Source of the DNA: a virus
Length of the DNA stretch: 22,098 nt
Reading direction: 5' to 3' (one strand)
Virus record (IMG/VR): IMGVR_UViG_3300009686_000025
Coordinates: 1-22,098 of that record
Within the stretch, counting starts at the first letter, position 1. Every line of letters starts with the position of its first letter. A model generated the notes under the pieces. That model had not been told where the DNA came from. It saw nothing but the letters and a program-made list of their open reading frames with translations, and did not search any database. Below are positions 299 through 21,995 of the stretch, piece by piece. The position numbers and the translations under genes were made by a program.

Positions 299-376
299 AA
301 GGTACTTCCAGCGACTTGAAACCCTTGCGGTGCCTGGCGAGCCCAAACTACCCAAAGTAACGGCTTAAATTTGGTA
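299..376 (+). other. Candidate packaging (cos) region upstream of the terminase genes
   Basis: The 264 bp between the first gene and the small terminase contain the terminator and then a block at about 301-345 that is strikingly GC-rich for this window. It contains TTCCAGCGACTTG (306-318) and TTGCGGTGCCTGGCGAGCCC (325-344). No plausible gene covers it. Lambda-type phages with Nu1/GpA terminases carry cos just before the small terminase gene, and lambda cosN has a similar GCGAC...GCGG arrangement. The core CTTGCGGTGCCTGGCGAG has imperfect dyad symmetry, with outer CTnGC/GCnAG arms matching. CTACC (348-352) and GGTAG (372-376) can also pair. The location and composition are seen directly; the cos role is inferred. 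A regulatory RNA or leader is the alternative. I found no convincing promoter here. Confidence 0.45.
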
Positions 377-429
377 GCCACTTCCTTCCTGGAAATTCAT
401 ATAAATTGGTCTGAAAGAAGGTGATTTTG

Positions 430-3127: not shown

Positions 3128-4732
3128 TTGAATAATTCAGAAATGGTTGAGATTGAAAAATCAAAGACAAAGCAATTGGAAGCCAAGGCACAAATCCAAA
3201 TTGCAAAAGCAAATGGAGAAATTGCTAAGGCGAGAGCTCAACTCGCTAAAAGTTTTAGGAATTCAGGATATTCTGAAAGCGGAGCAAGCAGGGTGAAAAA
3301 ATCTGTGAAAGGTTGGACTGCTAACAGCAAGAGTCCAAAGGAGGACATAGACGATAATCTTGATTTGCTACGACAGAGATCTAGAGATCTGTTCATGAGC
3401 GCACCAATTGCAACATCAGCAATTAAAACAAATAGAACGAACGTTGTTGGACAAGGACTTAAACTAAAAGCAAGAATTGATTTTTCTTTTCTTGGACTTT
3501 CAAAAGAAGAAGCTGATGCATGGGAAATGAATACAGAAAGAGAATTCAATCTGTGGGCTGATTCTGTTTGGTGTGACGCTCTCAGGATAAATAATTTTAA
3601 CGAGTTGCAGCAGCTCGCATTTATGTCATGGCTTCTAAATGGTGATGGTTTTGGTCTGTTGAAAAATGATGATGCAACTGATTGGATGCCTTATACTCTC
3701 AGGATGCATTTGTTTGAAGCGGATCGAGTTAGTAATCCAAATAATAAAACAGGAAACGACGTTAAAGCTCCTAATGGAAATCGAATAATAAATGGTATTG
3801 AAATAAACAGTAATGACGCTGTCGTAGCATACTGGGTTTGTAATCAATATCCAAGTAGTAATTCAGGGAAGAAAGAGTGGAGTCGTGTTGAAGCCTTCGG
3901 AAAGAAAACAGGTAATCCTAATATTCTTCACCTCATGGAGCAGGAACGATGCGAGCAATATAGAGGGGTACCATATCTGGCGCCGGTAATAGAATCTTTA
4001 AAACAGATTAACAGATATAGCGAAGCGACATTGACGGCTGCAGTAATACAGTCGTTTTTTACTGCATTCATTAAAACTGAAACGAACGCGTCGGATAATC
4101 CATTTAATTCTGCTATACCTGAAGATCAGCAGGTAGAAAGTGATGAATTTTCTTATGAACTTGGTGCCGGAACAATTAACGTGTTAAGACCAGGTGAGGA
4201 TGTTACTTTTGGAGATCCTAAACAACCAACAGCACAATTCGAAGCATTCACTACAGCAATGTGCAAATATATTGGTGCAGCATTGGAAATACCTTTTGAA
4301 CTTTTAACAAAGTCTTTTATGGCCAGTTATTCAGCATCGAGAGCTGCACTCCTAGAGGCATGGAAAGCATTCCGCATGAGAAGAACATGGTTTGCGGCTG
4401 ACTTCTGTCAACCTACATATGAGGTGTGGCTATCTGAAGCTGTTGCAGTTGGAAGGGTGAATGCTCCAGGATTCTTTAATGATGCCGCAATAAAGAAATC
4501 TTGGTGTAAAGCTGATTGGAATGGACCAGCTCCTGGAATGATTGATCCCGTAAAAGAAGTTCAAGCTGCTACACTCAGAGTTACTGAGGGTTATTCCACA
4601 CATGAACAGGAAACAATCGGACTCACTGGTGGTGATTGGGATAAAAATATAATTCAGATTACTAGAGAAAATGAACTTTTAAGAAAGGCCAGAGGAGCAA
4701 TACAACCAGTAATAGAAGGGGGAAATGAATAA
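3128..4732 (+). CDS. Portal protein, lambda gpB family
   Basis: This protein of about 534 residues should form the dodecameric ring through which DNA enters and leaves the capsid. Family-typical segments follow in order: SRVKKSVKGWTANSKSP (about 55-71), a LRQRSRDLFMSAPIATSAIK stretch (81-100), NVVGQGLKLKARID (105-118), and a later EIPFELLTKSFMASYSASRAA segment. The N-terminal 45 residues are an unusual Ala/Lys/Glu-rich helix with several AKA/IAKA repeats. A TTG start at 3128 is preferred because GAGGTGA (3116-3122) is correctly spaced for it. GTG 3119 lies inside that SD, and ATG 3143 is a further alternative. It overlaps the protease gene by 8 nt if the latter starts at 4725. Confidence 0.92.
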   Translation: MNNSEMVEIEKSKTKQLEAKAQIQIAKANGEIAKARAQLAKSFRNSGYSESGASRVKKSVKGWTANSKSPKEDIDDNLDLLRQRSRDLFMSAPIATSAIKTNRTNVVGQGLKLKARIDFSFLGLSKEEADAWEMNTEREFNLWADSVWCDALRINNFNELQQLAFMSWLLNGDGFGLLKNDDATDWMPYTLRMHLFEADRVSNPNNKTGNDVKAPNGNRIINGIEINSNDAVVAYWVCNQYPSSNSGKKEWSRVEAFGKKTGNPNILHLMEQERCEQYRGVPYLAPVIESLKQINRYSEATLTAAVIQSFFTAFIKTETNASDNPFNSAIPEDQQVESDEFSYELGAGTINVLRPGEDVTFGDPKQPTAQFEAFTTAMCKYIGAALEIPFELLTKSFMASYSASRAALLEAWKAFRMRRTWFAADFCQPTYEVWLSEAVAVGRVNAPGFFNDAAIKKSWCKADWNGPAPGMIDPVKEVQAATLRVTEGYSTHEQETIGLTGGDWDKNIIQITRENELLRKARGAIQPVIEGGNE

Positions 4733-7735: not shown

Positions 7736-8042
7736 GTTTATGGATTATGTTTTATCAGACTTAAACACTCTCATTAACAGTGATGAATTTGCAGAAATAC
7801 ACAATGTTGATGGTAAAGATGTCTCAGTTATAGTCGATAATGACAAGTTGCAAGAACGTAGCAAGAAGGAGTTTGATGGCTTAAGTGTCGGAGAGCTCCT
7901 TTATTTTGCAAAAGTATCTGATCTAGCAAAGAAACCAATGCAGGACTCGGTTCAATTATTTGATAAAAGACCATATTTGGTTTTCAACGTTAGAGAAGAT
8001 AATGGACTTTATGAAATCATTCTTCAGCAGAATAGAGGGTGA
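7728..8042 (+). CDS. Head-tail connector, lambda gpFII-like
   Basis: This 104-residue protein is likely the head-completion or stopper protein that provides the docking site for the tail. Its C-terminal half has the connector beta-barrel pattern: YFAKVSDLAKKPMQDSVQLF, then KRPYLVFNVREDNGLYEIIL. This reads as a hydrolase-free small barrel that ends each domain with a V..V.ed.G.Y.I.L strand. The position after capsid and FI-like genes supports this. The SD is weak (GATGTGAT about 8 nt upstream), so translation may depend on coupling with the overlapping upstream gene. ATG 7740 is an alternative start. Confidence 0.7.
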   Translation: MAKFMDYVLSDLNTLINSDEFAEIHNVDGKDVSVIVDNDKLQERSKKEFDGLSVGELLYFAKVSDLAKKPMQDSVQLFDKRPYLVFNVREDNGLYEIILQQNRG

Positions 8043-8046
8043 TGAT

Positions 8047-8673
8047 ATGGGAAGAAATTCAGCAATTATAGATATTGATACTACTCAAATTGAGCGCCTT
8101 ACAAAAGAACTAAAAGGGTATGAGAAGGAAGTCGCAGAAGCAACAAGGCTTGCTTTAAATCGTACCATTGATTTCACAATAACTCAGGCAGGACGCGAAG
8201 TATCAAATCTGTATGCTGTTAAACAAAAGGAAGTTAAAGATAGTTTTAATGGAGGCATAAAAAAGCCTACTAAAACTAAACTTGAAGCTTCAATTATGTC
8301 AAAAGGCCATACTTTAAGCCTTGCACACTTCCCATTCACTCCCAAAACTGCAAAGCGAGGTAAGAAAAGTGTTTTTCAGAATGCAGTATTCGTAAAAATC
8401 AAAAAGGCAAGAGGAAGTGTACTAGTCAAAAATGGATTTGTTGGCCACACAGGAGCGACCTCTGCAGAGAAAACTCAGTATAATGTTTTTATGCGTGAAG
8501 GCAAGAAAAGGCTTCCGATTATGCCGATTAGAACGCTTTCAATTCCACAGATGATCACAAATGATAATGTTGGAGAAAAAATAAGTCTGGCAGCATCTCA
8601 AAAACTAAATGAGAGACTGGAGCATGAAGTAGTTAGGATAATGACAAGTACACAGAAGAAGGTGAGCAAATGA
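8047..8673 (+). CDS. Minor tail protein Z-like (gpZ family) neck protein
   Basis: This 208-residue basic protein has a helical N-terminus (IERLTKELKGYEKEVAEATR, ALNRTIDFTITQAGREV) and a beta-rich middle containing LSLAHFPFTPKTAKRGKK and VFVKIKKARGSVLVKNGFVG. It ends with a Lys/Arg-rich helix. This layout is typical of gpZ and similar tail-completion proteins, which act at the head-tail joint. The upstream in-frame extension back to 7960 lies inside the previous gene and lacks an SD; ATG 8047 has GGGTGATGAT directly upstream. It overlaps the next gene by 4 nt (ATGA). Confidence 0.75.
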   Translation: MGRNSAIIDIDTTQIERLTKELKGYEKEVAEATRLALNRTIDFTITQAGREVSNLYAVKQKEVKDSFNGGIKKPTKTKLEASIMSKGHTLSLAHFPFTPKTAKRGKKSVFQNAVFVKIKKARGSVLVKNGFVGHTGATSAEKTQYNVFMREGKKRLPIMPIRTLSIPQMITNDNVGEKISLAASQKLNERLEHEVVRIMTSTQKKVSK

Positions 8674-20859: not shown

Positions 20860-20888
20860 AATAACATATCAAAAGGAGGTACATGTAT

Positions 20889-21995
20889 ATGGGAGAACAA
20901 AAGAGAGATATATATTGGGATATTATCAAGGGGTTAGGAATAATAGCCATAGTTCTTGGACATATTGCTAGTCCTTATTCATCATTTGTATATTTATATC
21001 ATCTCTCACTTTTCTTTTTCGTTTCAGGGTTTTTATATAAAGATACTCATTCCATAGATGTATTTAATTATACTAGTAGAAAATTACGTGAATTATATTT
21101 ACCGTTAATTAAATATGGCGTAGCTTTTATATTACTTCATAATATTTTTATTAAACTTAATATTTATAGTAAAGAAATTGACCCTTCAACATCATATTAT
21201 AGTTTATCAGATATGTTTTATCGTAGTATAAATGAAATTATAAATGCCAATTCTCTTGAGGGTTTAGCAGGAGCTTTGTGGTTTGTTACACCTTTGTTTG
21301 TAGCAATGCTGATATTTTGTATAATTAGAAATTTTGCAATTAAATTTAAATTAAATGATATTAAAAAAGAAATATTCAGCGGCATAATTTGTTTGTTATT
21401 AAGTTTACTAGGATTAAAATGTTTTATTAATCATATTCAATTAACATGGAGAACCGATATAGCACTAGTAGTTATGCCAATAGTTTTTATTGGGTATTTA
21501 TTTAAAATATATAATAGTAAAATTCGAATAAATTGGATAGTTGCTTTACTTTCAATATGTGTTTTAATTAGTTTGTATAAGGATAATATTAGGATTGATT
21601 TTGCGAATGGTGCTATACCTACTCCAGTAAAATTTATATTAGCTACATTTTCAGGTATCTATGTAAATCTTTTTCTAGGTAAAGTATTAATGAAGCAACA
21701 ATATATAGCAAAGTTTATTGCTTATTTGGGAAAAAATTCATTTCATATAATGGCTTTACACTTTCTTTCATTTAAAGCCATGAATCTTATTGATGTTTTA
21801 ATTAATCATAAACCATTATATATGGTTGCATCATTTACAGTTTCAAATACAAATTGGTGGGTATTGAACTTATTAGCCGGACTACTAATACCAGTCTTAT
21901 GTGTTTACTTATATGAGTTAATAAGAACAAAAATAGTATATTTGAATGGAAAGCGAAAGGATTCATATAAAATCATGAGTGCGACTAACTTGTAA
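20889..21995 (+). CDS. Membrane O-acyltransferase (acyltransferase family 3), probable lysogenic-conversion gene
   Basis: This 368-residue integral membrane protein has about ten hydrophobic segments. Family-3 features include RDIYWDIIKGLGIIAIVLGH at the N-terminus, with the GH pair (24-25), then VYLYHLSLFFFVSGFLY (34-50), LWFVTPLFVAML (130-141) and AYLGKNSFHIMALHF (278-292). Relatives such as OafA and phage Oac transfer acetyl or other acyl groups to surface polysaccharides; the substrate here cannot be told from sequence. ATG 20889 has SD AAAAGGAGGT at good spacing; ATG 20883 is too close. It has its own promoter and terminator and is clearly more AT-rich than the head genes, marking it as an acquired cargo (moron) gene. 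Its position beside the tailspike fits receptor modification. Confidence 0.88.
   Translation: MGEQKRDIYWDIIKGLGIIAIVLGHIASPYSSFVYLYHLSLFFFVSGFLYKDTHSIDVFNYTSRKLRELYLPLIKYGVAFILLHNIFIKLNIYSKEIDPSTSYYSLSDMFYRSINEIINANSLEGLAGALWFVTPLFVAMLIFCIIRNFAIKFKLNDIKKEIFSGIICLLLSLLGLKCFINHIQLTWRTDIALVVMPIVFIGYLFKIYNSKIRINWIVALLSICVLISLYKDNIRIDFANGAIPTPVKFILATFSGIYVNLFLGKVLMKQQYIAKFIAYLGKNSFHIMALHFLSFKAMNLIDVLINHKPLYMVASFTVSNTNWWVLNLLAGLLIPVLCVYLYELIRTKIVYLNGKRKDSYKIMSATNL

Follow-up and report, generated by a model that had tools for sequence, protein, structure and literature searches.

The locus raises the question of what the GC-rich, non-coding block lying just ahead of the terminase genes does. The source record is a virus stretch of 22,098 nt, which was analysed whole and is called the window below. 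The first-pass annotation had read the block at 299-376 as the candidate cos site of a phage with a GpA-type terminase. Conservation upstream of the same terminase pair and the DNA ends of relatives, which fall inside the element, both uphold this reading. On the basis of conservation, position, spacing and the ends of relatives, we consider the element to be a lambda-type cos site of a GpA-type phage, with a probability of roughly 0.93.

The gene upstream of the block ends at 165. The terminase small-subunit gene terS was located at 430-969 on the plus strand (start 430, alternatively 421) and matched phrog_57, a PHROG terminase small subunit family (E=1e-34). It is followed on the same strand by terL at 962-2809, which matched PF05876 (E=8.7e-73) and PF20454 (E=1.1e-78), confirming the assignment to the GpA type, and a tail sheath gene (phrog_23) lies downstream of both. 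A search of solved structures with a profile of four TerS proteins gave no match up to E 0.1, and blastn of 150-1000 against phages gave none. The block has a GC content of 50.0%; the window as a whole averages 36.8%, and the stretch 166-298 has 24.8%. Stretches of 78 nt as GC-rich as 299-376 make up the top 1.05% of all those in the window, and 322-344 (78.3% GC) is its richest 23-mer, the sole one at that level among the 23-nt windows (4.5e-5). The block was also rightly described as non-coding, being covered by nothing other than short minus-strand open reading frames of 51 and 79 aa. The dyad symmetry claimed for it did not hold up. The best inverted repeat in 299-376, which differs from the motif pair originally named, was equalled or beaten in 228 of 300 dinucleotide shuffles, and symmetry was therefore dropped as support for a cos site. 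At 238-267 on the plus strand, outside the element, an AT-rich hairpin (inverted repeat 238-251/254-267, 93% complementary) precedes a run of T and is perhaps the terminator of the upstream gene; a consensus terminator scan of 100-520 made no call on it.

The conserved element spans 300 to about 394, and the interval 299-376, proposed earlier as the nicking and binding region, thus holds a cosQ-like box and the nicking site cosN and misses the cosB-like site. The first motif quoted for the block, TTCCAGCGACTTG, begins shortly after the conserved box does, overlaps it with its first letters and otherwise consists mostly of variable spacer. The cosQ-like box AGGTACTT occupies 300-307 on the plus strand, 30 nt before the predicted top-strand nick; in lambda (J02459), GGGTCC likewise starts 30 nt ahead of the cut. 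Among 51 distinct relatives, the distance from box to cut was 29-31 nt. The box of the window (AGGTACT) differs from that of lambda (GGGTCCT) in two of seven bases, and six of the seven close relatives L098-L104 carry the lambda form, GGGTCCTT.

The nicking core, TTGCG^GTGCCTGGCGAG^CCC, was assigned to 325-344 on the plus strand, since the records or contigs of relatives start or stop at homologous positions. Nicks are predicted at 329/330 on the top strand and at 341/342 on the bottom strand, and from these two positions a 12-nt 5' cohesive end, 5'-GTGCCTGGCGAG (330-341, plus strand), is deduced for the phage. This predicted overhang is one base longer than the 11-mer GTGCTNGCGAG of most relatives examined. 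CG precedes the top nick (328-329) and CC follows the bottom nick (342-343). Two-fold symmetry around cosN is weak, with 6 of 16 bp in 328-343 by hand count and 4 expected by chance.

A spacer (345-377) with AAATTT at 367-372 leads from cosN to an R3-like site; relatives carry an A-tract/T-tract in the same spacer. The R3-like site, CCACTTCCTTCCTGGAA (378-394, plus strand), is a putative TerS-binding site (cosB) by position and likeness. Its inner motif CTTCCTTCC (381-389) begins at +52, 52 bases past the cut. The R-like motif also started at +52 in 29 of the 51 relatives, at +49 in one and at +51 in one, while the strict R expression, which finds lambda R1 and misses lambda R3, failed in 20. 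From the nick to position 520, this expression matched a single R-like site. The sequence CTTCCTTCCTGGAA recurs in two contigs with related TerS (L002 and L006), and it occurs once in the window at up to 2 mismatches, with 0.16 expected. Counted from the cut, mean information was 0.99, 0.38 and 1.88 bits per base at -30 to -24, -23 to -6 and -4 to +14, respectively, and 0.92, 1.01 and 0.31 bits per base at +15 to +45, +46 to +60 and +61 to +72, respectively; the values for box and core are inflated by the search pattern itself, and those beyond +14 are unaffected. An exact 11-nt inverse pair was also found, joining TAGCCACTTCC at 375-385, which overlaps the R-like site, to GGAAGTGGCTA at 549-559 within terS. 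The second copy may be an inverted TerS site or a product of chance. By eye, the inverse match shrinks to 9 nt in L006 and to 5-6 nt in L002 and L005, and 549-559 encodes a conserved stretch of TerS; for both reasons a second R site is not claimed.

The exact sequence TGCGGTGCCTGGCGAGCCC had no match in viral_contigs. A like element was found upstream of the terminase in five contigs with related TerS (L002-L006), three of which (L002, L003 and L004) are identical in letters. It was also found before the terminase of Anaerobacterium chartisolvens (L007), the one TerL relative found in genome_contigs, where an extra gene, ParB-like by eye, stands between the element and terS. When the box and core pattern alone was searched in viral_contigs, 68 contigs matched, and in 56 of them a same-strand GpA match begins 533-803 nt downstream. 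Of the other 12, four have GpA in the full record (L031, L038, L050 and L063). Four contigs with less than 700 nt downstream of the element (L035, L049, L057 and L072), as well as L080 (907 nt downstream) and L056 (1,221 nt downstream), have no GpA in the record. The last two, L043 (20,136 nt) and L055 (17,203 nt), have no GpA anywhere in the full record.

A profile built from 51 other distinct elements matched the window at 298-388 on the plus strand, scoring 38.7 bits (E=5.6e-10), and nowhere else in it at E values of 10 or less. Scanning from the terminase side, we found the element upstream at E<0.01 in 112 of 160 loci (37 of 80 found by TerL and 75 of 80 found by TerS), these loci being the best 80 of each longer list, with some contigs counted twice. 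The other 48 had no element at E<0.01, some of them carrying weaker forms; L106, which begins too late in its contig, L107 and L117 gave no element match. The element is therefore kept among relatives with the same terminase pair, as the alignment check suggested in the first-pass annotation had called for.

The second check suggested there, mapping DNA ends, was run on relatives, and record, contig and published ends all fell inside the element. Seven deposited relatives, Lagaffe, Shimadzu, nd4, Lily, Lelie, Pioen and Vibrio X29, have record ends within it. The Lagaffe record ends in ...GCGGTGCT and begins with GGCGAGCCC..., Lily with ...GGGGCG and GGTGCGCGTGAGCCC..., Lelie with ...TTTACG and GGTCCG..., and Pioen (PP479940) with ...GAGCG and GGCTCG..., respectively. 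The Shimadzu and nd4 records carry GTGCTTGCGAG and GCTGGCGAG, respectively, at each end. The X29 record, with ends ...GCGGGTGCTCGCGA and CCCC..., was opened at the predicted bottom nick. The exact base varies among the records: the first base after the predicted top nick opens those of Shimadzu, Lily, Lelie and Pioen, and those of nd4 and Lagaffe open 2 and 5 bases further on, respectively. For nd4, Shimadzu and X29, the ends are those of the deposited records, and a literature search on Shimadzu termini found no paper. For Lily, 5' cohesive ends with 12-base overhangs are reported in PMC6070908, and 5' ends are stated again in PMC11860570. For Lagaffe, PhageTerm put cos ahead of termS (PMC5883640), and for Lelie it gave 5' overhangs (PMC11792537).

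Metagenomic contigs also begin and end at the predicted nicks. Among 28 distinct element-bearing contigs that begin in the fetched flank, three start exactly at the predicted top nick, 24 start upstream of it by 15 to 1891 bases and one, L112, starts 12 bases downstream; the corresponding Poisson figure is a rough 5e-7. In this set, contigs seen by both scans count once, after manual merging; the deposited genome of Lily (L166) was excluded, as was L230, and L115, below the cut-off at E=0.013, is absent; L115 starts 4-5 bases before the nick. Searching with the pattern stripped of the bases after the bottom nick gave 58 contigs, 11 of them new. Four of the new contigs end exactly at ...GCGAG, one ends a base later and five carry other bases; the apparent end of the remaining one, L263 (G003), is really no contig end.

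A 5' overhang is filled in during library making and leaves a short repeat at both ends of an assembly, while a 3' overhang is trimmed. For end inspection, 14 records were picked whose loci appeared to begin or stop close to the element. In these, the 11-mer GTGCTNGCGAG stands exactly at the contig end in G001, G002, G005 and G006 and exactly at the start in G006, G007, G008 and G009, giving eight contig ends on predicted nicks from seven IMG/VR contigs. G006 (44,959 nt) carries GTGCTGGCGAG at both start and end. Another long contig, L230 (IMGVR_UViG_3300024999_001770, 65,729 nt), opens 116 bases ahead of terS, and its first letters, TGGGCTTCAGACTCCCG, are unlike the common 11-mer; the offset of this start, TGGGCTTCAG, is uncertain, and the contig perhaps represents another cohesive-end type.

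The same ends bear on the reading of the element as the pac site of a headful phage, where one initiating cut would be made near terS and later ends would be imprecise. Such a site has in its favour that PhageTerm classed the relative Pioen as headful (PMC11792537). However, the right ends of G001, G002, G005 and G006 are exact too, with G006 carrying the 11-mer at both ends, and Lily and Lelie have the 5' cohesive ends cited above. Even for Pioen, the first base of the PhageTerm-rearranged record corresponds to the cos top nick, and its headful call may be worth re-examining. Together these observations make a pac site improbable.

That the element acts in RNA, giving the terminase transcript a structured leader or a regulatory 5' end, seems more improbable again. 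The alignment of 51 elements does fold better than column-shuffled versions (z of -19.4 for the top strand and -11.7 for the bottom strand), but the fold is a hairpin of 5-6 pairs at about -5 kcal/mol that forms on either strand within the invariant core, where covariation cannot show because the core does not vary. An Rfam search of the whole window gave no match, another gene separates the element from terS in L007, and the DNA ends of relatives fall inside the element. These ends, lying in the core, also argue against a promoter or operator that would control the packaging genes, although the element does sit where one might be placed, between a terminator-like hairpin and the first packaging gene. 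In 100-520, no sigma-70-like promoter was found, against 1.3 expected from shuffles, for this one promoter type, and a regulatory site of this kind is the least probable of the three alternatives.

Taking the element as a cos site, we compared it with known systems. Lambda cos (J02459) shares with it the place before the Nu1/GpA genes, the box 30 nt before the top nick, the CG before that nick, the 12-nt 5' stagger (inferred here) and an R site (putative here) about 50 bases past the cut. The two differ in that lambda has CG after the bottom nick and the window does not, and in symmetry, which reaches 10 of 16 bp in lambda cosN and 6 of 16 bp here. By hand count, 4 of 12 bases of the cohesive ends match. 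According to PMC4669245, CG base pairs flank both nicks in lambda-like cos sites, and lambda-like phages in the narrow sense have cohesive ends much like those of lambda. Judged by its letters, the window phage is not lambda-like in that narrow sense, since 4 of 12 cohesive-end bases match and the bottom nick lacks a flanking CG.

Lambda has a complex cosB of three R sites and an IHF site, whereas the window has one R-like site. PMC9026076 places lambda R3 at bp 50-65, with its distance to cosN being critical, and describes N15 as having a single R3 at bp 48-60 and a terS start at bp 89. Compared by published positions only, the window has one R-like site at +49 to +65 and terS at +101, and because this single site lies at a comparable position, it would follow the simple, N15-like plan. 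Lily, Lagaffe and Lelie carry a homologous element in the same place with their record ends within it, and their TerL proteins are 45%, 48% and 46% identical to that of the window, respectively. The core letters of Lily (GGTGCGCGTGAG) and Lelie (GGTCCGAAAG) are unlike those of the window. The R-like site reads CGTTTCGTTTCG in Lagaffe, TTTCGCTTTCCG in Lily and CACTTCCTTCC in the window, and none was evident by eye in Lelie.

Based on this plan, TerS would bind the R3-like site at 378-394 and anchor GpA, which would nick concatemeric DNA in a staggered manner at cosN (top 329/330, bottom 341/342) and leave the 12-nt 5' cohesive end GTGCCTGGCGAG. The terS-bearing end would go into the capsid first, and packaging would halt at the next cosQ-cosN. 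We infer both the contact of TerS with the R3-like site and the role of the cosQ-like box.

Lambda-like cos sites are already known, and individual Firmicutes phages have had theirs mapped before. Our literature search, which covered listings with few subscription papers among them, showed no description of a cos plan shared by Firmicutes GpA phages. As far as can be read from the DNA, the window element would work like lambda cos and represents a different, Firmicutes-type version of it. Beyond this one phage, we think it somewhat probable that a single cos grammar unites the GpA phages of Firmicutes with lambda and, judged by letters, also takes in Vibrio X29 and, weakly, Fusobacterium Funu1. 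In the proposed grammar, an RGGTMCT box is followed after about 30 nt by CG^G and a stagger of 11-12 nt, and then, past a spacer, by an R3-like site near +52. If it is true, sequence by itself would give the genome ends of very many uncultured phages to one or two bases, and orphan copies with no terminase of their own, like that of L055, would mark elements that borrow the packaging machine of a helper.

Because the site very probably follows the plan of phage lambda cos, the genome ends of the window phage should be predictable almost to the letter, and chromosome ends are predicted almost to the base for many relatives as well. The lambda plan of box, cut and R site at fixed distances would then extend far beyond enterobacteria. 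It also yields a simple signature in the DNA by which GpA phages that have 5' cohesive ends can be recognised; with it, circular assemblies could be opened correctly, automatic calls such as the headful call for Pioen could be vetted, and satellites with cos and without a terminase could be found.

Several side observations were made. In L055 (IMGVR_UViG_2728369667_000005), a full cosQ-cosN copy lies at 4650-4694, with a neck/tail-completion-like gene and a DnaC-like helicase loader upstream and an HNH endonuclease and a sigma-factor-like gene downstream. L055 is perhaps a satellite borrowing a helper terminase, or a rearranged prophage. L043 (IMGVR_UViG_2513237367_000003) carries a Lagaffe-like element and diverges from Lagaffe directly after the R-like site, just before terS, and perhaps marks the border of a prophage or a break in the assembly. 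The gene ending just before the element is neck/tail-completion-like in L055 (3682-4509, phrog_27) and, by eye, in L002, and a neck protein (Ne1) is the last gene before the right end in Lagaffe and Shimadzu; the phrog_27 gene of the window is at 7960-8673, away from the cos element. Past the tail genes of the window, 20883-21995 encodes an acyltransferase (PF01757, E=3e-25), perhaps a cargo gene altering the host surface.
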